NCBI GenBank assembly: GCA_964036665.1
Contig: OZ038532.1
Coordinates: forward strand, 16,448,537 to 16,512,536
Direction: 5' to 3'
Length of the DNA: 64,000 bases
From: Gordius sp. MW1
Taxonomy: Eukaryota; Nematomorpha; Gordioida; Gordea; Gordiidae
In this document: piece by piece, positions 5,749-58,200 of the stretch
Position numbering within the stretch: the stretch's first letter is position 1
Layout: each line of letters starts with the position of its first letter
Program-made: the position numbers and the translations under genes
The notes under the pieces: model-generated
Seen by the model: only the letters and a program-made list of their open reading frames with translations
What the model was told of the DNA's origin: nothing
Database searches by the model: none

Positions 5749-5915
5749 TGCGTAGCCAGGGGGGCAGGGGGGAGCGGCCACCCCCCCTAAATGGCGAAAA
5801 ACTTTTTTTTCAATGCAAAAGATTAAAAAAATTTATGTTTTGCCCCCCCCCCCTTTTTGAACTTTTGAACGTTTCGCCCCCCCCCCCCCCTAATCCAGAA
5901 CCTGGCTACGCCCAT
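5749..5915. mobile_element. Foldback element with GCGTAGCCAGG ends
   Basis: GCGTAGCCAGG at 5750-5760 is mirrored by CCTGGCTACGCC at 5901-5912, with long G and C homopolymers inside. The ends resemble hAT-type termini of the CAGTGGCGTAGCCAGG kind; see the better preserved copy at 63462-63722. A target duplication is not evident. Confidence 0.6.
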
Positions 5916-19447: not shown

Positions 19448-19449
19448 TC

Positions 19450-22400
19450 CTAAGAAAATAATATTGATAAGGTGTAGTTAGAAATAATTAACCATATGTG
19501 ATATACAAACAAGTGATGCTTCAAAAAATAAAAAGTTTTATAAAGCAGTAAGTTATTTTAACATTATTGTATTAATCAATTGACCAGACTATATTGCTTG
19601 AAAATTAGTCTTGTGTTTGCAATGATCTTTTCGTGTTGATTATTAATTTTCTTCAACAAATTATTTAAATCGATTAAGATGGTAATAAAATACTTTGATT
19701 AATCCATATAATTTGATTGAGTATACTTTGGGTCGTTCAAAAAACAATACTCTAAAATTATGGTATTCACTTTGTACAGAAAACAACATCATAAAACTGT
19801 ACTGCTAATAAGGTTCAAATATTTAAATATTATCAAAAATTTAGATTGGGGCTTTTACTTTAATAAAAAAAGTAAATTTTTAAATTAACTAAAAAATTTC
19901 AGTATAAAATATATAAAATGAATAGTTTTGATGTAATGTTAAAATAAGATTTAAAACGCGGTTTTTGTTTTAATAAAAAATCAATTTAATAACGGAAACT
20001 TAAATTAGCAAAATATATACTTATTTTTTGTAAAAAGCACCAAATAAATCCCAACTACGTGCGTAAATTGAAGTAGACAATTGAGGGCAAGTCCGGGTTA
20101 TTCAAATTTTGAGCGGGCCGTGCTGAAGGGGGCAAGATGTTTTAAAAACGCATTTTGAGGGGGCTTTTCTATCACTATTAATTTTATGTCGGCGTTATTA
20201 AGACAATTTGATTGCTTTTAAATTACTAATTTGTTGCCAGACACTTATTAACAAATTTAGACGGTAATTAAAATTTTTATTATTAAAATCTATTATCAAA
20301 TAAGAGATTCTGGTTGCGTTTGTGTAATCATCACCAAATTTGAAATTATATGGACATTAGAAATTTTTTTGTAAATCATTTAGGTTATGTTGTTAGATAA
20401 ATAATGTTTAATTTAAAAGTTAAATTTCGTAAATTGTATGATGACGGAAAATCGGTTGCAGGGAAGGGGAGGGGGATTTCGGGTTAAAACCCCTACCCCC
20501 CTTCATTGATAAAAAAAATTCAAAAATTTATGGAAAAACTCAATGATATTTGCATAATCCAATTAAAAATTAATTTTTCCTCTGTGTTTTAACATGCTTA
20601 TGTGAATAAGCAACTTAAGAATTCTTGTTTTTTAAGGAAATTTCTTTATTAGTGACTGCAAGTGTTGTTATTTGTTCAACATATATTATACCCAGATTTT
20701 TTTATACAAAATATAAATTGTTACTCCTCTTAACTTTGCAAATTATTTTTAAATTCTACTTTGAGATGATCATAACAAAGTTAACTTTATTAAAGCAAAT
20801 AGTTGGCATCGGCCAAATTTGATTTTTAAAGTGGGGCTTGGACGGGCGTCAAGGTAACCAAACGGACTGGGGCCGAGTCTAGCTATAAGTAGGCCCGAGG
20901 CACGGGTCCGACTAGCATAATTATTCAAATAATGTTTTTATTTTTATAAGAAATTGTGTCTTTAATGACGTCTATCAAATTTAATATTTTTACAATAATA
21001 ATTTAATCATTTTAAATATTTCCTCGTCGTTTATTCGTATATTTGATATAAGTGGATCCTGAAAGTTTCAATTTTTTATAAGGTTGAAAATTAACAAAAA
21101 TAGGTAATTATTGTTAAATAAAATTAACCTTACATAGAGTTTCTAATTATATTTGAGATGGTTTTATGCAGCTACAAGTGCTAGTCGCTTGTTAGAAGAA
21201 AAAACTACGTTTGATACTGATAATTTTTTAACATAATTATTATTGAACTTTTCAATATAAATATTTTATTATTTTAAAATTGACAAAATACCGCAATTTT
21301 GTGAATCTTTTAATTGGCCATTTAGCTCCTGAGTTACTATAAATATTATTAAATGTACCCTGAATTATATCGAAAACGCAAAATGTCCATTTTCAGTATA
21401 CTTATTATATCGACAAAGAAGGGGGGGGGGGTCGGTTTAAAATATTTATTTTGGGTTAACACTGTATATAGTTTATATTTAAATTGATATAAAACTTTCT
21501 TTTGAATTCTTGGTTAGCTAAGGTGTCAGAAATATTAAACATCTCAAAAACAAGTATTAAAAAATGCACAAATTACTGCAGTTGTTCTACTTTAAATTTT
21601 GTCAAGCCATAGATATAATTATATCTCAACATATGTCAAACCAATGCAGTTTTAATTAATTATTAAGTTATTGTTATATAAATGATTGTAGAAAGACAAG
21701 TTAATAAATAGTTCCATCTAATAGGAGCTGGATATTTTATAAGTAGGATTAGGAAGGTACTAGTTTCCTTTCCTTTGTAAATAAAATTTAAAACATTTAG
21801 TTATAACATGTTAGTTGCTGCTTAATAAATATTCTTAAAAAAAATACTGATATATTTTTACAACCAAAATGGATTATATGTACTATCATGTAAAACTTTC
21901 AAATATATGATTATTTTACTTAAATTTGTGTTCAAACAAAAATCATAAGAAACTAATTTAAAAAGACTGCTAAATAAACTTTTGAAATAAGGTAATTTAC
22001 AATAACATTTATTACTTATAAAATACAAGTTCAAATTCTAAATCTCTATAATATTTTGCATTCAATGCTAATTTCATCACATCTTTATAATAGTATAAAA
22101 TTCAAACAATTATTTAATAAAATTAGATAAATTCTTAATAATATACCAATTCAAAAAAACATCAGCTAATTTATAAAATAATGGGTCATATGGTTTTCAC
22201 ATCATACTGGCTATGATGATTATTTGAAAACATAGTGCAGAAAAATCAAAGTCATAATAAGAGTAGCTAATCAAATTAGCAAATTGTAATAAAGGTTCTT
22301 AGTTATTCATACTTCAAAAGCGTCCGATATACCCTTTTAAGTAATTAGTGGCATAAAGTGTAAACTTGTGTGAAAAATATAGATAAAATTTACCTGTAGA

Positions 22401-28826: not shown

Positions 28827-29507
28827 TAGAGCCCTACACGGGCCGCCCGAAGCCCGACCCAAGCCCAGCCCGACACGATCGGGCTTTGGGTAAAGCTCGG
28901 GCACAATTTAATAAAACAATCGGGCCTCGGGCTTGGGTCGGACCTGATAAGGCGGCCCGACTTAAGGCCCGAGCCCGGCCCGATATGACTAAAGCAAACT
29001 AATCGTTTATAAAATATTTAAACAAACTCATCGATATTAAATAATTATCTTCGTACAGCATACAATATAGCTTCCAAGTTACAGCTTTTTCACCATGCCT
29101 ATAATAATTTTGACATAAATTGCAAATCATATTATAGTATTTAAATAATTTCATAGTAGTTATTACTTTAGAAATTAAATAAGGAAATTTCTTAAAAAGT
29201 TTTTTATTTGTAACTGTTAGATAAAAAATATTTTATAAAGTTAGATTTACAGTTATAAATTATTGGCTGAATAAATTGTAGCGAGTGAAAATAATTTTAT
29301 TTCAAACTTATCCTAGTTGTAAATTACGATTAAAAACAATTTAATGCATTATGTATTTATATGTTAAAATAATTTTCAAAAAATTTAAAATATTCTATTT
29401 GAAAAAAAAAGTTGGTCGGGCTCGGGCCTGGCTCGGGCAAAATAAAAACTTTGACTTTGGGCTCGGCCCGGGCTCGGGCAGAAAAAAATTCATTTTGCAG
29501 GGCTCTA
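28827..29507. mobile_element. hAT element of the GGGCTCGGGC family
   Basis: Left end TAGAGCCCTACACGGGCC and right end TTTTGCAGGGCTCTA, with an exact 8-bp duplication TGTGCATG at 28819-28826 and 29508-29515. Subterminal blocks consist of GCCCG/CGGGC repeats, and the centre is AT-rich. No transposase. It sits about 70 bp inside the Helitron 3' end. Confidence 0.9.
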
Positions 29508-35178: not shown

Positions 35179-36249
35179 CTGTATGCAGCTAGGCAACCAT
35201 AATTTTATGCCCATATTACAATATCAGACCTCACATTTATTGTTGATCTTCGTTCCAATATAATTAACTAACTTTGTTTCACTTATCTTAGGCATTTAAT
35301 GAAAATTGAAATTAGCTTATTTTTTAGTCTCCCAGTGTAACCTTATTACCGAGAATTTTTAAATTGTTTAGTCATCTAGAGTAGTGATGGGAAAAAGGTT
35401 AGCACTAGCGCGCTTAGCACCTCCCCGCTGATGGGAATAGCCTATTAAATACGCTATGTCTACTAGCACATACTCACTTTAAGTGCTATAAGCTATAGGA
35501 GATGGGAGGTTTGAGGCGCTAAAGCTATGGGAGGTTCGAGGTGCTATGAGCTATAGGAGATGGGAGGTTTGAGGTGCTATAAGCTATAGCCGATAGCACT
35601 TAAATGCGCTACTCATATAGCACGTGGCTAACACTGGGAATAATTTTTTTAATTGTTTATTTATTAGATAATAAATAAAATACATCTATTGTGCGCCACC
35701 ACCTCAATTTTTTGCCCTATCTTACCATCTAACTACGACTTATTTTAATATAAATTTAATTAAGTGTATGACTTTAAGTTAAATATTTTGCATTGCTTCT
35801 ACATTTATTTTATCAATAACTCGCCCTTCCACCCCCCCCCCCCTCTGAATGACGAAAAAAAAAATTCCAATGTAATAAAACCCTTACAAACTAATAATTT
35901 TTTTTGTTTTGCCCCTCCCTAATTGAACTTTTAACCGTTTCGCCCCCCCCCCCCCTCTAATCCAAAACCTGGTTATGCCCTACGCCCATCTTTTTGAGAA
36001 TAAAAAAATTAAACCCCCCCCCCCCCCTTAAGTTAATCCATATCCCATCAGGGCGATTATGTTTCAATGAAAAGAAAAACAATAGAGTGAACTTATGCGT
36101 ACTCCCTCATGTTAAATTACCAAGAAAAGGTCAGGGTTATCTCCAACTACATTAAACCAAATGCTATGCATGAATAGCTGGAGAGGAATCGACATCAATA
36201 ATTAACAAAATATTTGCCTGTTTTAAAAAATTTATATATATAACTAATA

Positions 36250-36935
36250 TATATATATATACTCGGGCCTTCGGCCCTTGTAAGAAGGGGGAGAAGGGGA
36301 AGGGGGGAGGGGGGAAGGGAAAGGGGGACGACTCATCTATACTCCGAATAAACGTAGCATATTTGCTATGCAATTTATGGGCGAGAAAGGTTGGAAGGGG
36401 CGAGAATGCCTATAGGGGGGGGGGTATTAAATGCAAAATTATTAGTTAATTATTAATTTATACAAATATTTAAAAAGGCAAATGGTATTAACAAGAACAA
36501 TACATTAATTTAAAAAAATAAAAAAAATTGCCCTCGCCGGGATTCGAACCCACATCAGTAGAGGCATAGGCTTTTGTAGGGGCACAGGGACCTATATTAG
36601 AGGCGTAGGCCCTTGTAGGAAAGGGCATAGGGTAATTACCAATGTTAACCTAATATACCCAATTCAAAAACGAAAAAATAAAATTTTGATTTATTTGGCC
36701 AATGGTCATTTTTTCATTGGTCAGTAGCCAGCGGACGGTCAAAAATTCATATTATCAAGGGTATTAACAAGAACAAAATATTAATTTAATTAAAAAAAAA
36801 AAATAAAAAAAAATTTGTCCTCTCCTGGGCTTGAACCCAAACCTCCAAGTCACAAAGCTGGCGCCAATAACAGGGTAACGGACGGACGGACAACCAAAAA
36901 CGAGCCCATATATTGCATAGCAATTAATAATGCGA
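36250..36935. mobile_element. Short copy of the TTGCTATGCAA-ended family
   Basis: CTCGGGCCTTCGGCCCTTGT (hairpin GGGCC-TTC-GGCCC) and a polypurine tract lead into TTGCTATGCAATTTATGGG at 36363. The mirrored CCCATATATTGCATAGCAA lies at 36907-36925. Inside are two tRNA-like B boxes on the minus strand (GGTTCGAATCCC near 36545; GGGTTCAAGCCC near 36835) and one copy of the GGCCAATGGTCA unit. It is nested in the 4-kb hAT element. Confidence 0.6.
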
Positions 36936-38117
36936 AATGGTCGAAAATAAAATTATCGTAGTTTGTGATTTTTAACAAGAGTATTATCATATAGACGTTG
37001 ATAAAGATATCTCACTTGGGAAATCTTTTATAATATTTACCAAATTTAGTATAAAATAAGTACTTTAACCGGCTGAAATAAAACGTATTGGAAAATATTA
37101 CACTTAAAGATTAAATTTGTTATTTAAGTCGGATTTGTATTGGTTATTAATTAGTAAGTATTATGTTGAGGTGACCGGGGTAGTCGTAGCCAGGGAATAA
37201 TTATTTTTCATAAAATTCATATTTTTTATGTTCAGTTGAAGAAAAGGATAAAGACATTAAAGAAGAGAGCGAAAAATTAATTTTCTTTTTATACTACTAA
37301 TCAATGAATAACATAATATGAGTGAGTACGCATAAGTTCACTCTATTGTTTTCCTTTTCATTGAAACATAATCGCCCTGATTATGGAAATGGATTAATTT
37401 AAGGGAGGGGGGAGTTTAATTTTTTTATTCTCAAAAACATGGGCGTAGGGCATAACCAGGTTTTGGATTAGCGGGGGGGGGGGGCGAAACGGTTAAAATT
37501 TCAATTAGGGAGGGGCAAAAAAAAAATATTAATTTGTAAGGGTTTTTTTACATTGGAAATTTTTTTTTGTCATTCAGAGGGGGGGGGGGGGGAAAGGCGA
37601 GTTATTGATAAAATAAATGTAGAAGCAATGCAAAATATTTAAATTAAAGTCATACACTTAATTAAATTTAATTTATATTAAAATAAGTCGTAGTTAGATG
37701 GTAAGATAGGGCAAAAAAATTATATTTTCACAGAGAAAGGGTGGTGGCGCAAAACAGATGTATTTTATTTAATATCTAATAAATAAACAATTAAAAAAAT
37801 TATTCCCAGTCTATAGGAGTAGCGCATTTAAGTGCTATCGGTATAGTTGTTAAATTGCTAAGTAGCTTCAACTAAAAACGCGAGCACGAACACTAGCTGG
37901 GTAATATGCTAGTTTAAAACAATGAGTGCTAGCTGCTCGGTGCAATAGTTTTAACAGTAGCACGTAAAAATGCTCGAGAGGTTAGTCGAAGCAGCCAAAG
38001 CTGATAAAAAATTTAGGAGGAACTCGAGCAGTAAATTCAAGCAGATAGTAGATTGAATTGCTATTTGTTAAAATTACAATTTAAATCCTATTATATATCA
38101 TAAATAAATTAAGAACT

Positions 38118-38945
38118 TTGCCCCCCCCCTTATTTTTTACCCTCTTTCTTACCAGAAGGGGGGGGGGGGGGGTGTTTTGCCCCCCCCCCTATTTTTTATC
38201 CTCTTTCTCCCAGAGGGGAGATGGGAAGGGGGGGGGTGCCCCACCCCTCCTTATTTTTTATCCTCTTTCTCACCAGAGGAGAGATGGGGCCCCCCCTTAT
38301 TTTTTATCCTCTTTCTCACCAGAAAAGAGAGGGGGGGGTGTTTTGCCCCCCTCCCCTTATTTTTTATCCTCTTTCTCACCAGAGGGGAGATGGGGGGGGG
38401 GGGGGGGTGTTCCCCCCCCCCTTTTTTTATCCTCTTTCTCACCAGACGGGAGGTAAGGGGGGGGGGGGGGTGTTTTGCCCCCCTTATTTTTTTATCCCTC
38501 TTTTTCACTGGTGCCCCCCTGGTAAGAAAGAGTAAAAAAAGGTTGAGGGGCAAACGGGGTAAAAAATAAGGGGGGGGCAAAACATCCCCCTCCCATCTGA
38601 TGAGAAGGAGGATAAAAAATAAAGCCATCTGGTAAGAAAGAGGGTAAAAAATAGGGGGGGGGGCAAAACACCTCCCCCTCCCCTACCCCTTGGTGAGAAA
38701 GAGGATAAAAAGGGGGGGGGGGCAAAACACCCCCCCTCCTTTCTGGTGAGAAAGAAGATAAAAAATAAGGGCCCCCCCCCCCCATTTTTCCTCTGGTGAG
38801 AAAGAGGATAAAAAATAAGGGGGGGGGGGCAAAACACCCCCCCCCCCCCATATCTCCTCTGGTGAGAAAGAGGATAAAAAATAAGGGGGGGGGCACCCCC
38901 CCCCCATCTCCTCTCTGGTGAGAAAGAGGATAAAAAATAAGGGGG
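38118..38945. repeat. G/C-run minisatellite, itself inverted at its centre
   Basis: Units of about 45-65 bp have the core TTATTTTTTATCCTCTTTCT, then CACCAG, flanked by runs of 7-17 C or G. From 38118 to ~38515 they run in one direction and from ~38520 to 38945 in the other, making the centre of a 1.35-kb palindrome. The several long overlapping open frames on both strands arise because the repeat lacks stops; they encode only Pro/Phe/Gly-rich low-complexity strings. Confidence 0.9.
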
Positions 38946-39414
38946 GGGGGGCAAAGTGCTTAATTTATTTATGATATATACTATGATTAAAATTGAAATT
39001 TTAACAAATAGCAATGCAATCTACTATCTGCTCGAATTTACTGCTTGAGCTCCTGGTAAATTTTTTAACAGATTTGGCTGCTTCGACTAACCTCTCGAGC
39101 ATTTTTACGTGCTACTGCTAAAACTATTGCACCGAGCAGCTAGCACTCATTGTGTTAAACTAGCATATTACCCAGCTAGTGTTCGTGCTCGAGCATAGCA
39201 CATAGTTAGCATTGCTAAAGTCCGCAATTTAACTCTAGCTATCGGCTATAGCTCATAGCACCTCAAACCTCCCATCTCCCATAGCTCTAGCGCCTCAAAC
39301 CTCCCATCTCCTATAGCTTATATCACTTAAAGTGACTATGATAGCCGCATATGGGTGCTTTGTGCTATAGCTTTAGCTCCTTAAAAACGCTATTTCCCCA
39401 TCACTAATCTAGAG

Positions 39415-40115
39415 CATATTTAGATGCCCCAAAAATTTGTTTATAGAATTTGGTTGGGCCGAACCGTTAGTAGTACCTGCCGAGTTGATTTGCAAGTTAA
39501 CGACCCTTGAAAAGGCCATAATCGCTGTTTTTAGCAACTTAAATATTTCAAAAACTTGACGTATATAGAAAAACTAAAATAACATTTTTGTTTCATCGTA
39601 AAAAACTCTACGCGAATCGGCAAGCAGTTTGTCGGTTGATTTTATAAATCTATTATTTGTTAAGCAGTGTTATTAAAGTTTGAAATCAATGATTTAATCA
39701 ATATCTTAATAAATTTTTAATGGTATTATTCATAAAAAAAACTAGGCCATTGCAAGCGACCATTTCGAAAGCACCTATAAAATAAACTATTGAATATCTG
39801 TACAAATAAATGGGCTTTACATTTTATTTAAATAAATATAGCTAATTCTCAAATTGACATATTATATAAACAATGAATATAATGTATTTTATAAAAATAA
39901 ATTACAAAAATATGCGATATAAAAGGATTAAAGCTCTTAAAAATTTATTTAATAATGTTATAAATTAAAACTTGCAATTCTTGTAAATGTTATTGCAAGC
40001 ATTTTGAATGAGAATATAAGGAAAGCAGGCATCTAATAGATCATGTGAAAGGTGTGAAGATAGATTAACGATCTAAACCAAAATTTTAGTATATCTTGAT
40101 GTTAAGTCATTTTAC
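39415..40115. other. NCKAP1 3' region with palindromic-MITE arm relic
   Basis: 39430-39665 resembles one arm of the 10019-10914 family (AACTTGACGTATATAG, AAAAACTCTACGCGAATCGG, TTATTTGTTAAGCAGTG) and is followed by TTA. The remainder is AT-rich without recognised exons. Confidence 0.45.
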
Positions 40116-40208: not shown

Positions 40209-43200
40209 CTATAGTAAAAAAAATGACAAAAACATATAGTGTCAACAACGACAAAATTACTCTGAAAACGGTTTACAGATTTTATTATAGTTCGTTGTGC
40301 TGATGAACATGATTTTCTTATTTTTTCTATACGTCCATTTCTAAACCAATTGGTTTTAAGGTTGCGAAAATAAGCTTTTTAGGAAGTATATAATTGAAAC
40401 AAATCGATCAAATATAAAAATAAAACATAAGTTACAACTTAAGGTTCATCCTTTAAAAAATAAAAATATGAAATTTAAACGATTTTTTCTAATTTTTTAA
40501 TTAAACAGTGTTTACTATTCTAGGCAAAGAGGGAAACGTCTAGCGCGATTTTACAATATTAGATATAAGAATAAGTTAATTTTCAATATAAATTAAAAAT
40601 CCAAAATAGAACAAATTTTTTAAACGTTAATTGGTTTTAGGACTTAAAAGCATAAACTTATTTTCGCAACTTTGAACCAATCTTAAAACATGACGTGTTG
40701 GAGAAACGGGAAAAAATATTCAAATGCACCACTAAAAACTCTATCAAAATTTGCTAGCCGTTTGATTTAACTAATTCATTATTTGCTAACTAGCGTTATT
40801 ATTAAACTTTAAAAGCTGAATGGGAGAGCATGGAGCTAATAATTAAATTTGAAGATTTTCACAACCTGCATCTTTGCGAAATGTGAAACATCGTTCAAAA
40901 AGACTTCTATATTAATAAATGAAGTCATTTTATTTTAAGTTGAAACCTAAAAACTATAAAAGTTTTAAAATGTATAGTTTTTCAAGAGTTATTTATAATA
41001 ATATACAAGGAATTTTTATAACGCCTTTACATATCAAATGAAGACAATAGCAATGCAAATAGATGTATAAAGTTGTTTTTTGGATTTAAATTTATAATTT
41101 ATTTTTTCTATTTAATGCTTATGTATAAGTTATTTCACATTGCATGGAGTTACTTAAAATCCTACTCACTAAATAGGGAGAATTCATTAACAAATTATAA
41201 ATAAAAACAATCAAAATTTTGACTAATTAACACACGCAAGGTTCTTACAGCCAAAAATTCTTTATGCCTATCTTTGAGATCGTTCTTGCCATGAAGGTGA
41301 AGAAGAGTCGAAAAAACTACATCAAGACCTTTAGCTAAGCAATGGGCATTATTTCTCGCTCCTACAATTATATATACAACTTAAATCATAAAAATAATAA
41401 TTTAAAAATTATAACTGATAAATTATAAATTGAAATAAAGGAATTATTTATTATATATAATAATGTATACAATAATGGTTAGCATTTATCATATTTCGCT
41501 GATCCGCCACGCTAAGTTTTAACTTGTATTTGCTTTTTTGCCTCATTTTAAACCGCTTATTAGGACTATGATTATAGCATAAAAGATTAAAAAATAATCA
41601 ATCCTCAATTATAGGTGAACTTAATTAATATGATGAATAGTGCTATTTATAAATTGTAAAATTTATAAAGCTTTATTAAAAATCAAACTTTATTTAACAA
41701 AAAATCTACTAACAGTAATTTATAGACTATAAAAAGTATATCAAAGATGACGGTACTAATATTTTTAAATATGGCGGGTCGGGCTCGGGCAAAACTTTAT
41801 TACCCGACTGAAATAGGATTTTATACCAAATCAATAAAAAATAAATATTTTTGTAACAGCTTATAAATTTTCAATTCCAGTTCCTCGCCTATGTTTATAA
41901 TGTTTTTTGATCAAATTGCAAATACTTTGTATCAATTAAACTTAAAAAAAGTAAACAGTTCAAAAAGCTTAATTTATAAATAATTAATAAATTTATTATT
42001 ATAAAGATATAATATTATTTTAATCAATTAAGAGAATAAATTATAGCAATAGAAATTGGATTATCATTCTAAACTTATAGATGTTGTAAATCAAATTTCT
42101 TCTATATTTATAAGGTACTATTTGAAAAATATAATTTGCCTAAAATTTTGTAATAAAATTATCAGACCGGGCTGGGTTCGTACCAAAAATAAATAAAACC
42201 TTTCGGGCCGGGGTCGAATCATTTTGCAGGATCCTTAGTGTGGGGAAAGGTCATAGAATTAGACTCAAAAGATAATCTGCCTGGAAAGTCAACTTTGAGC
42301 AACTTATGGATATGAGAAAAAACAATGGATCTTCATTTGCGTTTTAATGATATCGAGAAAGCTTTCGACAAAATTGATAGGCAGTTTCTTTGGCACAACA
42401 TGAGTTACTATGCATTGTCATGTACGTTATAAAGCTAACAACAGACATCTGTCATAACGTATAAACTTCAGTTTAACATCATGTGGTGTGGTACAACATC
42501 TTAATAATTGTGTCTAAATATAATCGACACCTAGTCCCCAAAGCTCTTCATAGCAATGATGAATTGGATAACTAATGAACTGAAACGCGAACGTTCAAAT
42601 GTAGAATTAGCAAGGCAGGTCAAAGTGTGGTTGGATCGAATTGTGGGGATAAAAAAAATGATTATACGCTTGTAGTCGGGAAATGAAGACAAAAAATCAC
42701 ATCTGCAAATTCCTGCCAGATTTTTATTCAGTAAGAAGGATTTGCAATATATTGATTGGCTCTAGGATAAAATGTGATGGGGTGTGTGAAAAGCGAGATT
42801 AAAGCAAGGCTAAACGCATGATGCTAAAATTAAGCGAATTAAGTGGTGTTGGTGTACTATGCGCCAAAGAAGAAGTAGAATTTAAAAATCAATTATTACT
42901 AACATATTAACAAAAAAAAATTCCTTTTTTTAAATAACACTATGAGCCTATGGGTAACACTTTGGGCTTTTACGTACGACTGACATTGTTGGTTCGAATT
43001 TTGCTTCAATACATAAACACTTTATTTATTTATTAGCCTTTATAAAATGCACTAATGAGCGAAGTTTCTCCATACTCAGGAAATTCGAAACTTATTAAGA
43101 AAACTCGGGCCTTCGGCCCTCGTGGGAAGGGGGAGAAGGGAAGGGAAGAGGGGAAGGGAAGAGGGGAAGGGAAGGGGGGACGACTCATCTGTACTTCGTA

Positions 43201-46200
43201 TAAATGTATCATATTTGCTATGCAATTTATGGGCGAGAAAGGTGGGAAGGGGCGAGAATGCCTATAGGGGGGTATTAAATGCCTAATGATTAATTAATTA
43301 TTTATACAAATTTTCCATTATAGGCAAAATGTAATATAGGCAAGGGTTAGGGTTAGATTTAGTGTTTGCTTCTAGTTGCGTATTACATTAGTTTTTATGG
43401 CCTTTAGTGATTATGGGTCTAACAAACTTTATATTATAAAACAACACAATGTTAAGAATTTGCAGAATTGTTGGGAGAAATTTTTTGTTGAATTTGAACA
43501 ATTTTTAATTAAAAAAATCAAAAATTTGGCCAATGGTCACTTTTTCTCTATTGGTCAGTACCAACAGATACTCTATAAGTCAATAATAGCCAAAAAAAAC
43601 GGAAAAAAAAAATTTTGATGCTCACTTTGGCCAATGGTCATTTTTTTCCATTGGTCAGCAGCCAGCACACGGTAAAAGTGGATATAAATTCATAAGAGTA
43701 AAAAAAACAAAAAAAATTTTCGAATCACATTTTGGCCAATGGTCATTTTTTTCCATTGGTCAGCAGCCAGGACAAGTGGATATAAATTCATAATAGTCAA
43801 AAAAAAACGAAAAAAAAGTTTTCGAATCACATTTTGGCCAATGGTCATTTTATTCCATTGGTCAGCAGCCAGCGGACGGCCAAAAAGTCATAATAGCAAT
43901 GGTAGTAACAGGAACAATCATAATAGTCAACAAAAAACGAAAAAAATAATTTCAATTCACATTTTGGCCAATGGTCATTTTTTCCATCGGTCAGGAGCCA
44001 GCGGACGGCCAAAAAGTCATAATAGCAATGGTAGTAACAGGAACAATCATAATAGTCAAAAAAAAACGAAAAAAATAATTTCGATTCACATTTTGGCCAA
44101 TGGTCATTTTTTTCATTGGTCAGCAGCCAACGGACGGCCAAAAAGTCTTATTATCAATGATAGTAACAAGAACAATCAGAAGAGTCAAAAAAACTCCGGG
44201 ATTCTAACCCAAAAACTAGTTAAATTGCATAGCAATTAGAAGTAAACAACTTTTATTTATGTTTATTATATAACATTGGTCAGCAGCCAGCGGACGGCCA
44301 AAAAGTCATAATAGCAATGGTAGTAACAGGAACAATCATAATAGTCAACAAAAAACGAAAAAAATAATTTCAATTCACATTTTGGCCAATGGTCATTTTT
44401 TCCATCGGTCAGGAGCCAGCGGACGGCCAAAAAGTCATAATAGCAATGGTAGTAACAGGAACAATCATAATAGTCAAAAAAAAAAGGAAAAAATAATTTC
44501 GATTCACATTTTGGCCAATGGTCATTTTTTTCATTGGTCAGCAGCTAGCGGACGGCCAAAAATTCTTATTATCAATGATAGTAACAAGAACAATCATAAG
44601 AGTCAAAAAAACTCCGGGATTCTAACCCCAAAACTAGTTAAATTGCATAGCAATTAAAAGTAAACAACTTTTATTTATGTTTATTAAATAACTAGTTAAA
44701 TTGCATAGCATTAAAAGTAAACAACTTTTATCTATGTTTATTATATAACAAAAACTAGTTAAATTGCATAGCAATTAAAAGTAAACAACTTTTATTTATG
44801 TTTATTATATAACTAGTTAAATTGCATAGCAATTAAAAGTAAACAGCTTTTATTTATGTTTATTATATAATAGATAATTTAACAAATCTTATATATAACA
44901 CACCGAGGGAGAGAGAGATGAGGGGTGGGGCACCTCTTATGCATGAGATAGCGATGAGGGGTGGGGCACCTCTTTCTCATGCATAGCAATTAAAAAGCGA
45001 TAACCTAATATACCCAATGCAAATAGATAGGGAGGACAACGGACAACGGACGGACAACCAAAAACGAGCCCATAAATTGCATAGCAATTAAAAGATTATG
45101 TCATGACATCGATTGAATGGATTAGCATCATTAACAATACATCAAGAATGTTCTCACCTCAGAAATTATATATAGACTATCGCCGGGCAATAAAAAAGCA
45201 ACAATTTTTTTATAATGAAATTTTTTTATACCGTTTTGTAACTTTTATTTAATCAATAGAAGTTTATTTCCAAATAATTACGTGTGTTATGTCTAAAATA
45301 CATTAAATTAGTGAGCTGGCATATTTGTAAATAATTCTTTTTTTTATATTATAAAAAAAGTTATATTTTTAAATTTCCTCAACACCCTTAGAAGTTTTCA
45401 CATTAAACTAACTTGTAACATTTACGTAAAAATAAAAAAACTAGTTCCTTAAAAACTATACTAACATAATGCATCAAATAAATTACCATTAGCATTTGAG
45501 TGATGCGTGGTACCACCCAAAATATCACTTTTAACTAGGCGTGGAAATGATAAAGCAACTAATACCATCATTAGGCAGGTTATTTCGTGCTCTTCGTCAG
45601 TCTTATAATCTTGAATGATCATCGATCGATACATCAGTGAAGTATATATATATTACTGACGTAAAAACGGCTGGGTTTCGTTTGGTCGACCTTTGGTTTT
45701 AGTGCACTAAACTCAACAAACCAAGGATTTTTTGATCTATTTTTCTTTGACTAAAAAACCTTTGGTCTATTCATGTTTAGTCGACTAAAAGCAAAGGTCG
45801 ACCAAACAAAACCCAGCCGTTTTGACAACACTGAAATATTTTTAAAAATTACCAATATTTTGCTTAATAGCTATAGCGAGAAATGGATTAACAGGAGATT
45901 CAATACCAGCTGCAGTCGCCATTTCATTAACAATCTTTAATTAGTTGAAAAATAAATGTATAAAAATTTGAAAAAAATAATTGCTTACCGTTACATCAGA
46001 ATTCGCGTTAACGTTTTGAAAATCCGTGATTGACGTCAACAAAAAAGGTGCCCTGTCTTGTAGGACCTATAGATAAAATTGTCAAGTATAACAAGGCAAT
46101 AAGTTATAAATTTACATCGTTTAACGCTTCCATGGCTAATGAATTAAATGCGATTAATTTCCCAATAAGAATCAACCGCTGTAGTATGCCATCCAAACCT

Positions 46201-49200
46201 AATAGAAATAAAGTGTTTTTAAAAATCATTCATATGACGACATGATACGAGAGTTCTAATATTTTAAAATCAATAAGGGCGTAAATTATTCCAATTGGAT
46301 AAAGAAAATAAAATTTTGTGGTATAAAAACTTGTTAAAATAACTAATTTGGAAAAAGAAGAATTTCAATAAATCTCCCCATGTTACAATGTTAAAAGTAA
46401 ATTTATGACCTCTGCGGCAAAGATAATTTCGGACAGGGCTCAAATCCAAATTAATAAGTGTGGTGTTCAACCTAAACCCCCCCCCCCCACACATACTTAC
46501 ACTTATACCCTACGATTTTTATAGTTATCCAATTTAATTATGGCAAATTTATTAATTGCTATGCAATTTATGGGCTCACTTTCCAATTTGTTTTGTCACG
46601 CTATTCGGCGTGCGCACCGAACGTGGATGTCACGCACCGAACGTGGATGTCACGCACCGTTTTGTTTACTTTTAATTTTTGTTAATTTAACCAGTTTTTG
46701 GGTTCGAATCCCGGGATTTTTTTTTACTATTATGATTGTTCCTGTTACTACCATTGATAATAAGACTTTTTGGCCGTCCGCTGGGCGCTGACCACTGGAA
46801 AAAAATGACCATTTGGCCAAAATGTGAATCCAAGTTTATTTTTCCGTTTTTTTTGCCTCTTATGATTGTTCTTGTTCCTACCATTGATAATAAGACTTTT
46901 TGGCCGTCCGTTGGCTGCTGACCAATGAAAAAAACGTGGATGTCACGCACCGAACCGAACGTGGATACGCACTTTTAATTTTTGTTAATTTAACCAGTTT
47001 TTGGGTTCGAATCTCGGGGTTTTTTTTGAATATTATTATTGTAACTGTTACTACCATTGATAATATGACTTTTTGGCCGTCCGCTGGCTACTGACCACTG
47101 TAAAAAAATGACCATTTGGCCAAAATGTTAAACGAAATTTTTTTTTGCGTTTTTTTTGCCTCTTATGATTGTTCCTGTTACTACCATTGATAATATTTCT
47201 TTTTGGCCGTCCGTTGGCTGCTGACCAATGAAAAAAACGTGGATGTCTTGCACCGAATGTCTTTTTTGTTTACTTTTAATTTTTGTTAATTTAACCAGTT
47301 TTTGGGTTCGAATCCCGGTTTTTTTTTGACTATTATGTTTGTTCCTGTTACTACCATTGATAATAAGACTTTTTTGCCGTCCGCTGGCTGCTGACCAATG
47401 GAAAAAAATGACCATTTGGCCAAAATGTGAATCCAAGTTTATTTTTTCGCTTTTTTCCGCCTATTATGATTGTTCATGTTACTACCATTGATAATCTGCC
47501 TTTTTGGCCGTCCTCTGGCTACTGACCACTGGAAAAAAATGACCATTGGCCAAAGTATGAAGTAAAATTTTTTCCCTCGTTTTTTTGACTCTTATGATTG
47601 TTCCTGTTACTACCATTGATAATATGACTTTTTGGCCGTCCGCTGGCTACTGACCATTGGAAAAAAATGACCATTGGCCAAAGTATGAAGTAAAATTTTT
47701 TCCCTCGTTTTTTTGGCTAACATTGACTTATAGAGTATCTGTTGGTAGTGACCAATGAAAAAAATGACCATTTGGCCAAAGTGTGAAACGAAATTTATTT
47801 TTTGCGTTTTTTTTGACTCTTATGATTGTTCCTGTTACTATCATTGATAATAAGACTTTTTGGCCGTCCGCTGGCTACTGACCACTGTAAAAAAATGACC
47901 ATTGGCCAAAATGTGAATCGAAAATTTCTTTTTCTCCTTTTCTTCGCTAACATTGATTTATAGACCCTCTGTTGGTACTGACCAATTAAAAAAAATGCCC
48001 ATTGACCAAAATGTGATTCGAAAATTATTTTTTCGTTTTTTTGACTACTATGAATTTATATCCTCTTTTACCGTGTGCTGGCTGCTGACCAATGGAAAAA
48101 ATGACCTTAGGTAACTTTTTATGTTTGTTATTAAGTTTTATTAATTATATTGTCTGGGTTTCTAAATTTTTAATTGATTTTATTACGTTTTTCGTTGCTT
48201 TTTCTATTTTTATATGTTCAAAATTTATAAATTTTACTCGAAATTTAAATTTTAGATAAATAGCTCTAATCCCATTTCCGAAATTTTAATATGAAATTCC
48301 AACAATATTCTTCCATTTATAACTACTTCCCTAAAAAATAACTTTTCAATGGAGAAAAGTAGTAGAAAAGTAGTAGCCAGGGTAATTTACAAATTATTAT
48401 AAATCACTCGAGATCCAGAATTTAATTTCGAAAATGTTAGTACTAATTCAGTAGGAGAAGAAGGGTAACATAGAGATCAGGCAGGATCAGGGTTATAATA
48501 TAAGCTATTTGTTATATCTTTCTTAGTTAATCGTTCATCTATTTCAGCTAAACCTAATTCAAAAAGGCATTATACAACAACGAGATGTTGTAATAGGCTT
48601 CGGGGCTCAAAAAAAAGCTAATAGATCATTTTTGAATATCCCATTTTTTATACCATTTTTGAATATCTATACTATTTTATTTTTAGATATCTTATTAATT
48701 AATCTAATTATTATTACATCTTATATTTAAAAGTCATATTTTTGAATATCTAACCCATTTTCATATATTTAAATCTTATTTTCAAATTTGATATGCGGCA
48801 TACACCTCATAAGACATCAAGTACATTTTAGGGTCTAAATTTTTTATTAGCTTTTTTCTGATCATATTTCCTCGATACGCCTATGACAGTGAACAAAAGT
48901 AAGTTTTTAAATTCACTTGACGGCGTCGCGCATCTGTGCATCACATCACATTATCGGTTAATTTATTATAAAGGGGAGAGAGGGGAGGGGAAAGGGGAGA
49001 AACAGTAGAGTCCCTTATAATTCTAATCCTGCTTACGTCATGCAAATAAAATTGTTATTTAGCACAACGCTCTCTCCTAAAAATTTTAGCCAAAGTTTTA
49101 ATAAATTTCAAATTAATTATGGATTTAAAGGGGGCAACTGCCCCTCTTTGCCACCCACTGGCTACGCCGATGTTTATTTGTACCTTCAAGGTCGATAGAT

Positions 49201-52200
49201 ATTAGGCTTATTATCTCTATACATGGGCGAAGCCAGGTTTTGGATTGGGGGGGGGGCAAAACATTTAAAAGTAAAAATAAAATATTTAAACTCATTTATT
49301 TATAATTATTTATGCATTAGGGTATATATTTTTTCTTTTTAACTTTCTTTTTAGGTTTTCTATGAAATCACAATCTAATTAAATGAAATATATTAACCCA
49401 GTAAAAAAATATATATACTTTTATAAGGTTAAAAATATATTACATAGTTGGCTGTCTTAGCCAAGGGGGAAACCCTAGTAATTATCCTACCCCCTATAGG
49501 GATTCTAGCCCCCTCTCACCTTTCTCGCCCATAAATTGCATAGCAAATAAGCTATATTTATACGTAGAATAGATGAGTCGTCCCCTCTTCCCTTCTCCCC
49601 CTTCTCCGGGGGTCTGGGGGCGGAGCCCCCAGGAGATGGGGGTTTGGGGGCGTAGCCCCCAACGGGGGTTTGGGGGCAGAGCCCCCACCGGGGGACTGGG
49701 GGCGGAGCCCCCAGCAGGGGGTTTGGGGGCGAAGCCCCCAAGGGGGTCTGGGGGCGAAGCCCCCAGTTACGCCCGAAGGGCGTATTTTATGACTGATGAG
49801 TCATCATTGTTACCACGAGATGGTACCACTTCGCTTTTTATTACCTATCTCGAGCGAGCGAATTTAATTACTTCGCGTTAGTTAGTGTTATTGCACAATC
49901 ATCATTATTAATTAATTTTAATTCCTCATTCTCGTTTTTCATATATATATTTGTGTTTCGCCTAGTTGAATAAAAAATATACTTTTGGAAGACTAATTAA
50001 TTTTAGAAAGATAATTGTCCTCCCTTTTTGGGGGAGGACCGAAATTCTAATAATTCATTAACTTATGGGATTCCTTAATTGGAGCTATCCTTTAGAAAAT
50101 ATTATTCTCCGATTAAATAAATATACAAAATAATAAGTTAATCGGCTTTGGAGGAGGGTGTAGCATTAAAAAAGTTAACCACGTATTTTTTTGTCAGTGA
50201 TGTGTCAATTATTTTATTTAAAGAGCTTTTCCATTAAACGTTTTAATTTAATATTGTAATTCAAGAAACATAAATGTAATTAAATTTTCCGTTTATATAT
50301 TTCCCTGGCATGACAGGATTTGAATAATTTAGGTAGGGGCAAATAATATTATTTAAAGTATAACCACAATTTTGTTATATCTATTTCATTTTATCAATTC
50401 TTTCTTTTTTTAAGGAGGCAGTTGCCGTTCCTTGAGTAAGCCCATGTTCCTCACAACGCATGGCTAAGTATAATTGATAACTTGGTCTAGGAGATAGGCA
50501 TGAGCTCCAAACACAAGCGGGGTATGAAGCATATTTATTTCAAATTAAGCTTTGAGCGCCTAGTTAGTCAAATAGCTTCAATAAATCATTTAACGCAATA
50601 TTTAAGAAGGTGGATGCAAATGGATTGAATTATATAACCTATTTAGAGCATGATAAAATTCTAAAAAAAGAATTTCGTAAAAATAATTAAAATTAAATTT
50701 TTAAAAAGAGGAGTTATGCAAAAATAAATTATTATATTTGTTTGAAAAGATATTTTTACACTAAAAGTAACAAATAGGTTTCACAATAAAATGTATTTTT
50801 TAATAAATTTTTTTTATTTATTTTTAATAAAAGAATTTAAAGTTGGATTGACACAAATAAAAATTGTGCGATCAGTAACGAAATTTGAAAATTTTAGATA
50901 TAACATGTTTTGCTTAATTTTTGTCGAGAAAAAAATAAAATTAAAATAGTTTGATATTTTAAAAGCTATCAAGGCAGTATTACACTGTAATAAGTGGCTC
51001 CTAAAATATATATGAATATCTCATTTAACAATATAGTTTTTTTACTTATAAATTAAAATAGGTAAAAAAATATCATTCCAAAAAGAAAGATTTTGCAACT
51101 CATTTAACAATCATGACATTTGCCTTCCCTATCTCATCTTTAATACATAAACATCTCATAGATTAAAAATTTTCATGTTGAAAACTAGACACAAAAATGT
51201 GTAAATCACCACATAAATTTAAAATAGGAATTTGCAACTTATAAAGATTGATTTACTTACAAGCATGCATGGCTTTCTATAGTGAAAAGTGGGTCATATT
51301 ATTATAAATGAAAATAATGCTAACTTTGAGACATCTTTTTGTTGAAATCCTTCAATTTATTACCATCTTCAAAATTTGTTCGTAACAATGTAAGCAACTC
51401 TTTGTGTGCTAAAACAACTTTCTAAGTTAAAGTTATAGAGTATATTAAACAAATACATAAACAAATATACGTATAAGAATATAATTTATTACTATAATAA
51501 TGGTTAACTTTTAATTATTTACTCTCAACTCCATCATTTGGCTCGCAACATGTCTCATCAATTGTTCGCTAAGATGACGCATTCCATAGGCTGTCAATAA
51601 TTCGGCCAAAGCCTTAATTTCTATAGGTAAAGGTTTTAAAAATTTTGAATTAAATTTCTACAATCATAATCTTGCAAAATTTATTTTATAAATTGAATTA
51701 TATTCAAGATCCTTCTTCTAAATGATACATTTTTTGATTTAAACATTAAAGGAACTCTGTAAAATGGTTTCGTAAGTCTTACGCATATTTAGAGAGTAAA
51801 TCCACTAAACCATTGTAAATTAATTTAATAAAATTAGTTATCGTTAGCCCTTTATAAATTATTTTTAAAAAGCTTTTTAATAATAATTTCGAATGCATTT
51901 AAGGAATTTGAACAATTGACTCAAATAGAATTTAATGAAATATTAATTTGTTAAAGTTTATTGCATAAGAATTTAACGCCATGTGATATGATTGATAAAA
52001 TGTGCAGTTTATCATCTAAATGATGTAGATGGCGATCCAATACTAATTGTAATTTCAAAGGGCATGGTAGATAAGTCTATGTTTAAATAATATCTAATAT
52101 CACAAATTTTCCAGGAATAATATAATGGAGCTAAAGTATTAGCCAGTAACAGTTCAAAAAAAGATTAAAAATCGATAATTCTAATATCTCAATATTTATC

Positions 52201-55200
52201 TATATATTAATTGATTAAGAGGCAATCCATGCTCTAAGCTAACAATATGTAACTTGATAATTAATTATGAATAGACAACAGATTCTAAAAAAATTTTATC
52301 CTCAAAATGATGGGGGGTTTAAATACTACGATAGGCTACCTATCAGAGACCAGATTTGCCCGGGCCGGCCCGCTGCCGAACCGTGGGCCGAGCCGGGCAA
52401 CTATCGTAAATTTTAACTTTCGAGCGGGCCCGGGCGGGCACCATAACAAGATTCGGGCAATTCTGGCTCAATTTTGTTTTTAAAACAATGTATTATATTG
52501 TCTTTGTGTATATTTTGCCACTTTTTTAATTGATTTCATAATGTTTGTTAATCCTAGTTCTCATTTTAAAAAAATCAAAGATTAAGATAAAATTTGTAAA
52601 AAATGTCGATATTAGTGCTAAAAATTTTAAAACACACCATTTCGGGCCGGGCAGTTAGGGCAGCTCGGATAATTCGGGCATTGCCGGGCGGACACATAGA
52701 AGGGTTCGGGCGGGCAGATTAATTATAAAATCGGGCCGGGCCGGGTTCGGGCAGAAAAATTCTAACAAATCTGACTTCTGCCACCTATCTCTCCTCTTTA
52801 ATCTATACGAACTTCCGAGTTCCTTTCCATTTTATTATCGCATAAAGCTATGTTTTAATGCCAAAAGTTTTAATTTAACCATATTATAAATTTTCGTTTG
52901 TCCCATCCCGCACTAAATAACAAATTTAACATTATTTACCCTTATTAATGTATGTTAGCCAATTGATTAGAAGGGGGAGAGACCATTATTAAATATAAGG
53001 TAAAGGATTAAGTTTTCAATAAATAAATAAATAATTAAAATTAATTAAGGTTTTTTTTTCATGTTCGAGAATGCGTTAATGTCGCTAAAGAATAAATAGT
53101 AAATTTAAAGCAAGGCGGGCAAAGGGTTTTTTTTCTAACCTTTACCAAGCCTTTACGCCTATCAGAGGCAAAAAAAACCATTTAACAATATCTCCTAACA
53201 GTTATTTCCATGACAATCCAACTGTTGAATACCAAACATCAAAATAGCTGCCATTTTACTCTAATACAGGTTTATCCCAAATATCCATAATCCTTCTACA
53301 TGAACAACACAAACTCCACAACCCAAACCGGAATCTGCCCAGTCTGCTACAGGTTAGCTTCAATTACCCTCTCTAATTTAATTTACGTTCACGGTCCATT
53401 AAAACAGAGGTGCCCAGGCTCTGGAAAACATCCAGCAGCTACAGTCCCCAAGAGGTCTACCTCTACTCACTACCATTTATTGCATAATACCTACTCCCCG
53501 CTCGAAACCACCACCACCAATACATATTCAGACATTCCTCATTCTCCTGTTAACAGGATTCTAAAAAACATCCCTAAAGGTGCCAGACATCAAGTTCTAA
53601 TTGCCCTTACTGATGCCATCTCAAACCTCTCTAAGGACCCAAGCAGCACCCTCCATTGGGCCAACCTTTTTCAATTTACTTCCCGTGTCTTTCAATACCA
53701 CCATCAAATTACAAAGGTACCCTCTCGAATTGGGTTAAACAAAACTCAGCAAAATGGGACGTTTCATCACCCCCCATTATCTACGAGCCACACATCCATA
53801 AGATTACATCAGTTCAACAAAGAGCCAAACGGGTTTCCTCAAAACTCAACCACTTTGACATCCAGGGTGCCCTTCGCCTGGCCAATTCAGACTGCAAAAT
53901 TTCCCCAGACACTCAAGAAACCTTCAAATCTTTACAAACTAAACACCCTGAAAGAAATTGCTCCCAATTTCCCCCTACAATCAGCTCCCCCTTCAAGGAC
54001 TTCACATCGCCCGAAATTCTCGAGGCTATCGGTTCTTTCAAAAAATCCTCAGTAGGTTCTGGTTTAGACGGCTTCCGTGCTTCACATTTAATAGAATTAA
54101 CAAGACCTCACATTGACAGGTCTGGCCACTTCACATCCACCCTAGCAACCTTCCTTAACCAGGTTATTAAAGGCTTAGTACCTGACGCGATCTCTCCCTC
54201 TTTTTTTGGGGCCACCTTAATATCTCTTACCAAACCTGATGGTGGCCTTCGTCCAATTGCCATGGGTTCAATTTTTAGACGCATATGCTGCAAACTTATC
54301 ATTGCACGAGTAAAATCCGACATTGCAGATCAATTAGCTCCTATCCAACTAGGTTTCGGAACCAAGGGTGGTTGTGAAATCGCCTCTCACACTGTTCGCA
54401 TAGCCCTAGCCCATCCCGACCATTCGATCCTAGCTAAGATTGACTTCAAAAACGCATTTAACACGATCTACAGGTCACACTTCTTAACCGAGGCTTACAA
54501 ATCTCTTCCCGAGTACTCCATTTTCCTTTACGCATGCTACGCTCCTACTTCCATGCTCAACTTTAATTCCAAAATAATTGCATCGAGTGACGGCATTCAA
54601 CAAGGAGACCCGCTAGGCCCCCTACTATTCTGCCTAGGTATAAAATCCCTGACTGAAGACCTAGCCTCTAAATATAATCTATCACTCAACTTGTGGTACC
54701 TAGACGATGGTACCATCAAGGGAAATGCCGAAGACGTCAAAGAAGCCCTCTCTTATCTCGAAGTCGAGGCTTCAAAAATTGGTCTCCATCTAAATCATAG
54801 CAAGACCGAGGTTTGCAAAAACAATACTGACTCTTTAAGCCTAGACCATACTTTGACGCTTTCAAACATATTCACCCTAACGAACTAACGCACTTAGGAT
54901 CTCCCGTAGGTGGCTCACACCCTTGTAACAAGTCATTAACAGAGACAATACAAAAACTAGTAGAAATCAAACCCCTCCTTTCTTACTTGGCAGCCCACCA
55001 GGCTTTCTTTTTAATTAAAAACTGCTATTCTTTACCTAAGATAAATCATATCTTCAGGTCATCCACCTTATTTTTAAATCCTAATGCTCTATCTATATTC
55101 GACCAAAAACTCAAAGGTGTAGTCGAGGAAATCACAAACCTTTCTTTTACAGGGTCCCAATGGAAACAAGCGTGTCTCCCCACAAAATATGGTGGTTTGG

Positions 55201-58200
55201 GCCTGAGATCACCCCCTCTAGTAGCTTTGTCGGCCTTCATCTCAAGTCGACTTTCAGCCAAACCAATCATCGACAAAATAATCGATCAACCAGATCCCTT
55301 TACCCAAATCGCTCTCGACATGTGGAGCTCTTTGTCCGACCATAACACTCCATTCCCTACCATAAACTCTCAAAAAAGTTGGAACACTCCTCTCTACGAC
55401 CATGCCCTTAAAACTCTTATATCGGGCGCTTCGTTGGAGGAGTTACCAGCTTTAAGAAGTTTTGCATCAAGGTCCGGCCACGAGTGGTTGGAGGCCATCC
55501 CAAGTCGGACCCATGACCTTCAACTCTCCAACAACGAGTTCAGGATCGCAACAGGGCTCCGCCTAGGTTGTGATATAGTTGCCCCCCCATCAATGCAACT
55601 TATGTGGCTCATCTGTAGGTACAAAAGGTCATCACGGCCTACATTGCAAATTTAATGAGGCCAGATTTTTACGTCACACATCTGTTAATGCTCTTCCTGG
55701 CTTTCCCTCCCAATTGGAGCCTAATGGTCTTTGTCTTAGCGACAAGAAGAGACCCGATGGACAGACCCTCATCCCATGGGCAAAAGGGCTATGCCTAGCA
55801 TGGGACTACACTTGTCCGGATGCCTTTGCACCCTCAAACCAAAACAAAGACCCCCTTGTCGATTCTGAAAGAATAAAGTCAGCTAAATACGCAGAACTTA
55901 ATTCCTCACTCCTTTTCTGCCCTGTTCTGCCCTATAGTGACCACTACCCTTACAACAATAGGTCCTAAAACCCAAGCCCTCCTGAAAGAATTGGGGCGCC
56001 GTATAGCTGCCAATACCCTTGACAAAAGGGAAACTTTTTTCGGAATTATAATTTGTCATTTGCATTTCAACGCGATCGCAATTTTTGAATGTTTACCTCG
56101 CATATAATTTTTATAGTAGTATATAGTTTCATTTAATAAAAGATATTATAAGCAAAAAAAAAAAAAGAGAAGAATTTTACGTTTTTACCCTTAGTTGATT
56201 TACGTGCGACATAGATGCTTTAGGTTAAATTTCGACCGATTCGTTTTCTCGGCTTCAAAAAGGGGCGGGGCAAAACTCTAATTCTCGCAACTTTGAAAGC
56301 GATTTTTCCAAAAGCTTAATGCATGTAACGAAAAAGTTATTTATGTTCACCACAAAAAACCTATCTAAATTTGTTAGACGTTTTCAGTTGATTTCACAAT
56401 ACCATTATTTGTTGACTAGTGTAATTTGACATAAATAAACAAGTTAACTACAAGAAGGTTTCAATTTTTTTAATTACCTGCCTATTTTTTACTTTATGAT
56501 AGTTTCTAAAGCTTATTTTATGCGTTTTAAATGTTGCTACTTAGTGGTGCCTACACATCCGCGGTCTAGGAATAATAAGTGTTTATGTATTTGTACCAAT
56601 GAAGTCGACATACTCTTCGGTTGAGAATTTCATCTGTTCGTCATGGCCAAACGTGACAAAGGATTTGTAAAAGTCGGAGAAAATAATGGAATTATTCGTA
56701 GATCGCCGTAATAATATTTCCAAATACCTGTAAAATTTAAAAAATATAATTTTCTTGGCAAGTAAGTATATCTGTTCAAAACGTATAAAAAGCAAATCAG
56801 GCAAAAATGTGATTAAGGCATGCTCAGATTACCAAACAGTGTAGATTGAAGCTATTGTTTTTTCACCGTGATTATCTAAGGGCTGAGTTTGTTGCAGAAG
56901 CACATTTTTCAAAATTTTCACCAAATCTAAGTGTACTAAAAAAATAAAAAAAAACTTTATAAACAATACGTAATTAGTCAAAATTATAGTTACTATTTTT
57001 CTAATGCATACAATTGTGTCTCTTTTTAATAAATGGCTTATCATTAAAGAACTAAATTGATAATCAAAAGATTTTCACACAATACTTTTGATTCGAATTA
57101 TTTTTCGTTAATTGTCAATTGATCTAAACTGGTATTTCGGCAATATTAGTTTTTCACTTACGACATCAATCAAGAGTAAAAAAGCTGAAAACATGAGAGA
57201 TTTTGATTCCAATTAAATCTTAAAATTAAGATAGAAAAAATGATTTGGTTAGCCATCCTTTTTTACTTTAAATCCATACGTCCCTTAAAAAATTACAAGG
57301 CGAGATTGGATGTCGATCCAAGAAGGGCGATCCCAAAGCCCATAATTATTATAGTATTAATACAAAAGATAAATACGCAATTCCATTTTTTTAAGCTTTT
57401 ACCCGCTCACCTTAATTGGAATAAAGAAAGAACTAATAAATCTTATATATAAAAATGAAACTATGTATGTTTGTGTGTATGTATGTATGTGGATAAGGGC
57501 TAAATTCTGAAACTACCGGCCCGATTCGCGCGAAATTTAGCCATAGATGCCCAGGGCGGCCAGGGGTAAAATAGCTTTTTCAGAATCCTATTCTTTTAGT
57601 TTTAAAAATATCGGACATTTCGTTTTAAAAAAGGGCTAAACTCTGAAACTACCGGCCCGATTCGCGCGAAAAATTTAGCCGTAGATGCCCAGCAGATTCC
57701 TAAAATACCTTTTCGTTTTAAAAATATCGGACATTTCCCGGCCTGTTTCATTTATAGCATCATATACAATAATGACGTCATACATACGAGGCTGAAGTTT
57801 TCTCGAATTTTATTATATTAAAGAAAATTGTATTTTTAGCAAAACAACGTTTGCCGGGTCAGCTAGTACCAAATAATTATCATTTAAGCATTTTACGGCA
57901 CTATTCTTTGAAAACTGGGTAGTCTGCGTTGAAAATTTAAATTTTATTTTAATTCGTGTTTTGTAATAAAGTGACTAAAAATTTAAGTTGGATGAGCCAG
58001 GATTGTTATTTAAATAAAAAGATTTATAGACATATTAGTATGTAATTTGAAATATAGTATTGACAATTATTTGCTCTGGGCGTAATTTTAGGTAACAATT
58101 TTTGTATTTCGAGTGAGGCCGGCGTAAAAATTCGAATTTTAGATAGGGTATAAGACTAAAAAAATTAATCAGTTGCAATTTTAAACCCATCTAATGATTA

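Follow-up and report, generated by a model that had tools for sequence, protein, structure and literature searches.

hAT transposons have short terminal inverted repeats (TIRs) that start with TAG or CAG. One of them, Tol2, which encodes its own transposase, has inverted repeats in its interior that are a few hundred bp long. Here we describe a locus in the nematomorph Gordius sp. MW1 (GenBank assembly GCA_964036665.1, contig OZ038532.1), within a stretch of 64,000 nucleotides (forward strand, 16,448,537 to 16,512,536; referred to as the window, positions counted from its first base), in which hAT-like ends and target-site duplications (TSDs) are combined with long palindromes. The TIRs of hAT elements are about 10–25 bp long (PMC3942097). 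The Ac/Ds elements of maize have 8-bp TSDs, the TIR C/TAGGGATGAAA and subterminal hexamers that are bound by the transposase (PMC3260210). The ends of Hermes are dissimilar, and the BED domain of its transposase binds the left end and not the right; its 8-bp target has the pattern nTnnnnAn, which is described as a preference (PMC10368747). For the long-armed Galileo elements, the authors propose that arms are extended by repair templated by the homologous inverted repeat (PMC3573991, PMC4168063). A text match for "internal inverted repeats" concerned piggyBac (PMC2874221).

The locus, 35382–39406, is best read as two non-coding hAT-like DNA transposons, each of them palindromic, with one nested in the right arm of the other; we give this reading a probability of roughly 0.84. 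Most likely, the outer element, a non-autonomous hAT-like foldback of 2,621 bp, is the host of a 1.4-kb palindromic hAT-like element. The outer length is obtained as 4,025 − 1,396 − 8 bp, that is, with the second palindrome and one copy of its duplication removed and a repeat in the loop included, and it replaces the 4-kb size of the original prediction, which was made from the DNA sequence alone.

The nested element as a probable separate insertion

The whole second palindrome lies in a 1,396-bp insert (37842–39237; the nested element, P2) that starts with TATAGTTGTTAAATTGC and ends, reversed, with TAGAGTTAAATTGC. It is flanked on the + strand by two copies of the 8-bp sequence GCTATCGG (37834–37841 and 39238–39245). 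In the left arm of the first palindrome, read in reverse, the corresponding sequence is continuous (...GCGCATTTAAGTGCTATCGGCTATAGCTT...), and its right-arm counterpart is split into ...AAGTGCTATCGG, the 1,396 bp, and GCTATCGGCTATAGCTC...; the left arm contains, at 35590, a single intact copy of the target as CCGATAGC. When the two arms are aligned without the insert and one copy of the duplication, there is zero gap at the junction, and the closest gaps are one of 12 bases, at a distance of about 33 bases on one side, and one of a single base on the other side. On the + strand of the window, GCTATCGG is found in three places, the third at 54025. Of 200,000 draws of two random places from the window, 16 gave a shared 8-mer, a frequency that has to be read with the nested boundaries having been set after the duplication was seen. 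Since an exact 8-bp duplication surrounds the second palindrome and the left arm holds an uninterrupted counterpart of its target, this palindrome is best read as a separate insertion, and the outer duplication is therefore evidence for the outer element alone.

The locus had been predicted to be a single non-autonomous hAT element of 4,025 bp, with both palindromes integral to it, that transposed as a unit. The outer 8-bp duplication and TIRs do enclose everything, and the hexamer GTGCTA is present in the subterminal parts of both palindromes. However, the second palindrome has an exact duplication of its own and interrupts the outer right arm, whose counterpart is uninterrupted, and the left arm of the same copy already displays the insert-free site with one GCTATCGG. 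The second duplication and the intact left-arm counterpart led us to reject the one-unit interpretation, which we regard as very improbable. There is no sign that the composite ever transposed as a whole, although it may have done so at a later time.

Ends and target-site duplication of the outer element

The outer element is bounded by exact copies of ATCTAGAG on the + strand (35374–35381 and 39407–39414), which fit the pattern nTnnnnAn. The duplication is exactly 8 bp long, since the adjoining bases differ and 9 bp is excluded; the 8-mer has one additional site in the window, at 34319 on the − strand. The left TIR is TAGTGATGGGAAAA (35382–35395, + strand) and the right TIR is TAGTGATGGGGAAA on the − strand (39393–39406), giving inverted ends of the form TAGTGATGGG with 13 of 14 positions identical. 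Without mismatch, the TIR pattern TAGTGATGGGNAAA is found in the window only at these two ends. Both the hAT-type ends and the exact 8-bp duplication had been part of the original prediction, and both were recovered here.

The frequency of such pairs by chance was estimated by counting 8-bp TSDs joined to perfect 10-bp TIRs, 300–10,000 bp apart, in 20 first-order Markov copies of the window. The copies contain a mean of 0.15 pairs, with a maximum of 1. In the real window, leaving aside pairs that start before 5.5 kb, in a tandem array with units of about 343 bp, there are 27 pairs, consisting of the outer pair, five pairs internal to the palindromes and 21 pairs in tandem arrays at 43.6–47.9 kb.

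Inside the TIRs, the two outer ends are unlike. The left terminal region (35396–35466, + strand) and the right terminal region (39341–39392, − strand) have no detectable homology to each other: the identity over bases 15–85 is 0.46, equal to the shuffle mean of 0.46, with 184 of 300 shuffles as good. By analogy, this arrangement would be as in hAT transposons with unlike ends.

Arms and loop of the outer palindrome

Two successive palindromes had been predicted, and BLAST recovers both. The first aligns 35584–36114 with 37314–37846 at 87.7% identity. When the outer halves are aligned from the ends inwards, the TIRs match and symmetry begins about 85 bp in; over bases 86–733, 28 of 600 aligned sites differ, and there are additional indels, several of them within G/C runs. 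The left arm (35467–36114, + strand, outer edge approximate) contains the subterminal repeats AGGAGATGGGAGGTTTGAGG and GTGCTA motifs. The right arm (− strand) consists of an inner part up to the nested insertion site (37314–37841) and an outer part beyond the nested element (39246–39340). The first palindrome was also considered as a foldback insertion separate from the outer ends; this was rejected, as the inverted symmetry runs past its edges into the outer subterminal repeats (35584–35631 vs 37812–37846).

A piece of a dispersed repeat is found in the left arm (35832–35980, + strand) and again in the right arm (37448–37590, end about, − strand). BLAST against the window identified its relatives at 5778–5913, 14961–15110, 16487–16631 and 49225–49272, the second and third of which sit in one tandem duplication. 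Because the piece is present in both arms at similar identity, it predates the inverted duplication.

The loop (36115–37313) contains a further repeat, X (36261–36930, + strand), in agreement with the earlier claim that the locus hosts another repeat. A target duplication of repeat X was sought and none was identified. Its relatives are located at 43103–45091 and, reversed, at 49604–46549. They form the halves of an additional palindrome (43103–49604), which at about 6.5 kb is larger than the two described here, with inverted tandem arrays that carry a tRNA-like motif, GGGTTCGAATCC, for which ARAGORN gave no tRNA.

The nested palindrome and its minisatellite

The second palindrome aligns with itself over 37881–39191 at 81.5% identity, minisatellite included. 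Its left arm (37881–38138, + strand; 258 nt, 93% complementary), made up of a unique part and the first minisatellite bases, and its right arm (38934–39191, − strand) lead into an array of units of about 50–60 bp with runs of C and G. The array flips at its centre, as had been noted from the sequence: the forward half (38121–38508, + strand) has seven core motifs within 38143–38499, and the inverted half (38520–38951, − strand, edges approximate) has eight in reverse within 38521–38917, including a few spelling variants. The central 906 nt, folded as DNA, give −363.5 kcal/mol, compared to −179.1 kcal/mol (sd 6.1) for 20 shuffles (z = −30). The nested element is unlike the first element in sequence beyond short motifs.

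Between the nested arms, 15 of the 234 aligned sites beyond base 45 are different, as are 7 of the 40 that precede it. The divergence of the outer and nested arms is not significantly different (Fisher p = 0.30), and this similarity fits a nested element that was already palindromic at insertion.

Palindromes and G/C runs are hard to sequence, and foldback chimeras of reads could in principle have produced such a locus at the assembly or library stage. However, a read foldback would give near-identical arms, and the arms here differ at 4.7% (28/600) and 6.4% (15/234) of aligned sites and by indels, contrary to such an artefact; additionally, exact 8-bp duplications bound both units. We hold an artefact to be extremely improbable.

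Assignment to the hAT superfamily

The outer element combines the three hAT characters of an 8-bp duplication, a target of the pattern nTnnnnAn and a short TIR of hAT type. The nested element has a duplication of the hAT length, with GCTATCGG on both sides and a single copy at the unoccupied counterpart. GTGCTA or its complement TAGCAC is found 11 times in the subterminal regions of the outer element and five times in those of the nested one, with a background of 0.18 per kb. Between 35400 and 39362 lie 16 of the 26 sites in the window, and elsewhere there are at most two per 1-kb window. That a common transposase binds GTGCTA in both elements is a guess.

No transposase had been predicted at the locus. 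In Pfam scans (E up to 0.1), none of the 10 scanned open reading frames (ORFs), out of 13 of at least 45 aa overlapping 35382–38000, had a match, and no hAT transposase domain was found in the 26 window ORFs scanned (those 10 and 16 others). Most likely, both elements are non-autonomous, of hAT type, and were moved in trans.

Several observations weigh against this interpretation. TIR-like sites with up to three mismatches are no commoner in the window than expected by chance (28 vs 27.2). The count of 11 outer GTGCTA sites against 0.09 expected is for a motif chosen post hoc among all 6-mers. In the nested target GCTATCGG, positions 2 and 7 are C and G, where nTnnnnAn has T and A, and the nested left end (TATAGTTGTTAAATTGC) reads TATAG instead of TAGAG, with TAGAGTTAAATTGC at the right. 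A filter for hAT-like ends with a duplication gave three pairs, the outer pair and two elsewhere, and not the nested element. Bases 15–45 of the nested element are slightly alike between left and right (equalled by 12 of 300 shuffles), so dissimilar ends can be claimed for the outer element only. BLAST gave no second copy of either element in the window, and the domain scans left out the minisatellite ORFs and short ORFs in 38000–39406. Because its target departs from the pattern, its left tip is irregular and the end filter missed it, the nested element is called hAT-like rather than hAT.

The features could alternatively be those of foldback elements from another superfamily, Mutator-like FB or P-like Galileo, with coincidental 8-bp duplications. 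Foldback elements with tandem repeats in their arms are best known there: Galileo and Tetris are both described with long inverted repeats and tandem repeats (PMC3573991, PMC4168063, PMC4079207), and Tetris copies carry duplications of 8–10 bp (PMC4079207). However, the TIR of the outer element, TAGTGATGGGAAAA, is similar to that of Ac/Ds, C/TAGGGATGAAA (PMC3260210); its duplication has a length of exactly 8 bp and a sequence that conforms to nTnnnnAn; and its inverted repeat does not reach the termini, whereas the repeats of Galileo are terminal. These counter-arguments are weaker for the nested element. Overall, an origin from another superfamily is very improbable, and a hAT-type outer element with a hAT-like insert is preferred.

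Proposed origin

A half-element may first have taken up the piece of dispersed genomic repeat and then have become a palindrome, for which the likeliest origin would be repair of a break or gap in which one half was the template for the other. The outermost bases of the outer element would have remained different between left and right, in keeping with the needs of a hAT transposase that uses dissimilar ends. The resulting foldback element would have entered ATCTAGAG by cut-and-paste transposition, with a hAT transposase acting in trans. The other palindromic element, 1,396 bp long and with a minisatellite running through its centre, would then have landed at GCTATCGG within the right arm of the first one.

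A bolder proposal is that this genome contains a class of hAT elements that repeatedly turn palindromic inside while their ends are kept unlike. Break repair would copy one half over the other until the terminal bases that the transposase recognises are reached, and selection exerted by an asymmetric transposase would halt the copying there; the two elements would be independent products served by one transposase through GTGCTA. We consider this unlikely, and offer it as speculation. If other copies share the palindromic interior and the unlike ends, they would provide a genomic record of the reach of the asymmetric end requirement of the Hermes type, and recurrence of the pattern would show how inverted duplications arise in cut-and-paste elements.

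Relatives and other features of the window

When the element was compared with the window by BLAST, the only matches were the arm piece and repeat X described above, and one stretch of 23 bases. No relatives were found in viral contigs (three DNA patterns and the reverse transcriptase protein at 53.6 kb), in prokaryote contigs (one DNA pattern) or in plasmids and phages (query 35300–39500); these collections are non-eukaryotic, and the null says little. In the peptide-pattern search of non-eukaryotic collections, seven stretches matched and none was confirmed. Among eukaryotes, hAT families are named for the transposons of the arbuscular mycorrhizal fungus Rhizophagus irregularis, with no description that would identify the present element (PMC11075540).

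Two other segments of the window resemble hAT elements. An additional hAT-like element of 681 bp (28827–29507) has an exact 8-bp duplication, TGTGCATG, the TIR TAGAGCCC and ends rich in GGGCTCGGGC. A possible hAT-like element of 1,858 bp (11569–13426) has the duplication ATGTAGAG and the ends TAGTGCTGTAAACA / TAGTGTTGTGAATG, its TIR alone being weak. A self-complementary element (10014–10919; 73% over its whole length) has the ends CACTGGTCAACAAA / CACTAGTCAACAAA and partial relatives at 40660–40800 and 56272–56426. The window is low in G+C. It starts in satellite-like tandem arrays with units of about 343–346 bp (1–5439, at the window edge) and contains a tandem duplication (14722–17549) with copies of about 1.2 kb that are 89–97% identical by piece. 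A reverse transcriptase domain (PF00078, E 1.5e-19) extends across several overlapping ORFs in different frames in an element at 53291–55968, and an exon-like ORF of 6-pyruvoyl tetrahydropterin synthase (PF01242, E 7.4e-17) is located on the − strand at 19091–19477. Searches for tRNAs and against Rfam gave no match in the window.

Comparison with known systems

The locus is a clean nested pair of palindromic elements, hAT and hAT-like, and largely an ordinary case of nested transposons. It cautions that a composite inside one duplication is not necessarily a single element. Among the literature matches listed, which are mostly without subscription papers and do not cover Repbase, there is no hAT foldback element with these features, and long internal inverted repeats in a hAT element look unusual within the literature searched.

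The non-autonomous Ac/Ds elements share with the outer element the 8-bp duplication, a short TIR (C/TAGGGATGAAA vs TAGTGATGGGAAAA here), the lack of a transposase and perhaps repeated subterminal motifs, and many Ds2 elements hold "filler" genomic DNA. In contrast to Ac/Ds, the interior here is palindromic, and the candidate subterminal motif is GTGCTA instead of AAACGG (PMC3260210). Hermes is alike in its 8-bp target nTnnnnAn (for the outer element only), its imperfect short TIRs and its unlike ends with subterminal repeats; however, it is about 3 kb long and encodes a transposase, and a palindrome is not described for it in the excerpts of PMC10368747.

The interior architecture is closer to that of foldback elements, of which long inverted repeats with internal tandem repeats, as found here, are characteristic in Galileo and FB. 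In those elements the inverted repeats also extend to the element ends, which is not the case for the outer element and is less clear for the nested one. Non-autonomous Galileo copies consist mainly of long inverted repeats, and their arms include tandem repeats (PMC3573991, PMC4168063). In these copies too, inner sequence has been recruited into the arms, and there are nested insertions of other transposable elements (PMC3573991, PMC4168063, PMC2775673). Galileo differs in belonging to the P superfamily, in the 7-bp duplications of two copies (PMC2775673) and in having its long inverted repeats at the termini, whereas the symmetry of the outer element stops short of its ends. Tetris, a foldback element of Drosophila virilis, is similar in that it apparently encodes no protein, has tandem repeats within its long inverted repeats and makes duplications of 8–10 bp; it differs in its repeat unit of about 220 bp and in its suggested affiliation, which its authors place with Mutator (PMC4079207). 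Non-autonomous elements built as foldbacks are an already known kind, to which this locus adds a nested pair with hAT-like duplications.

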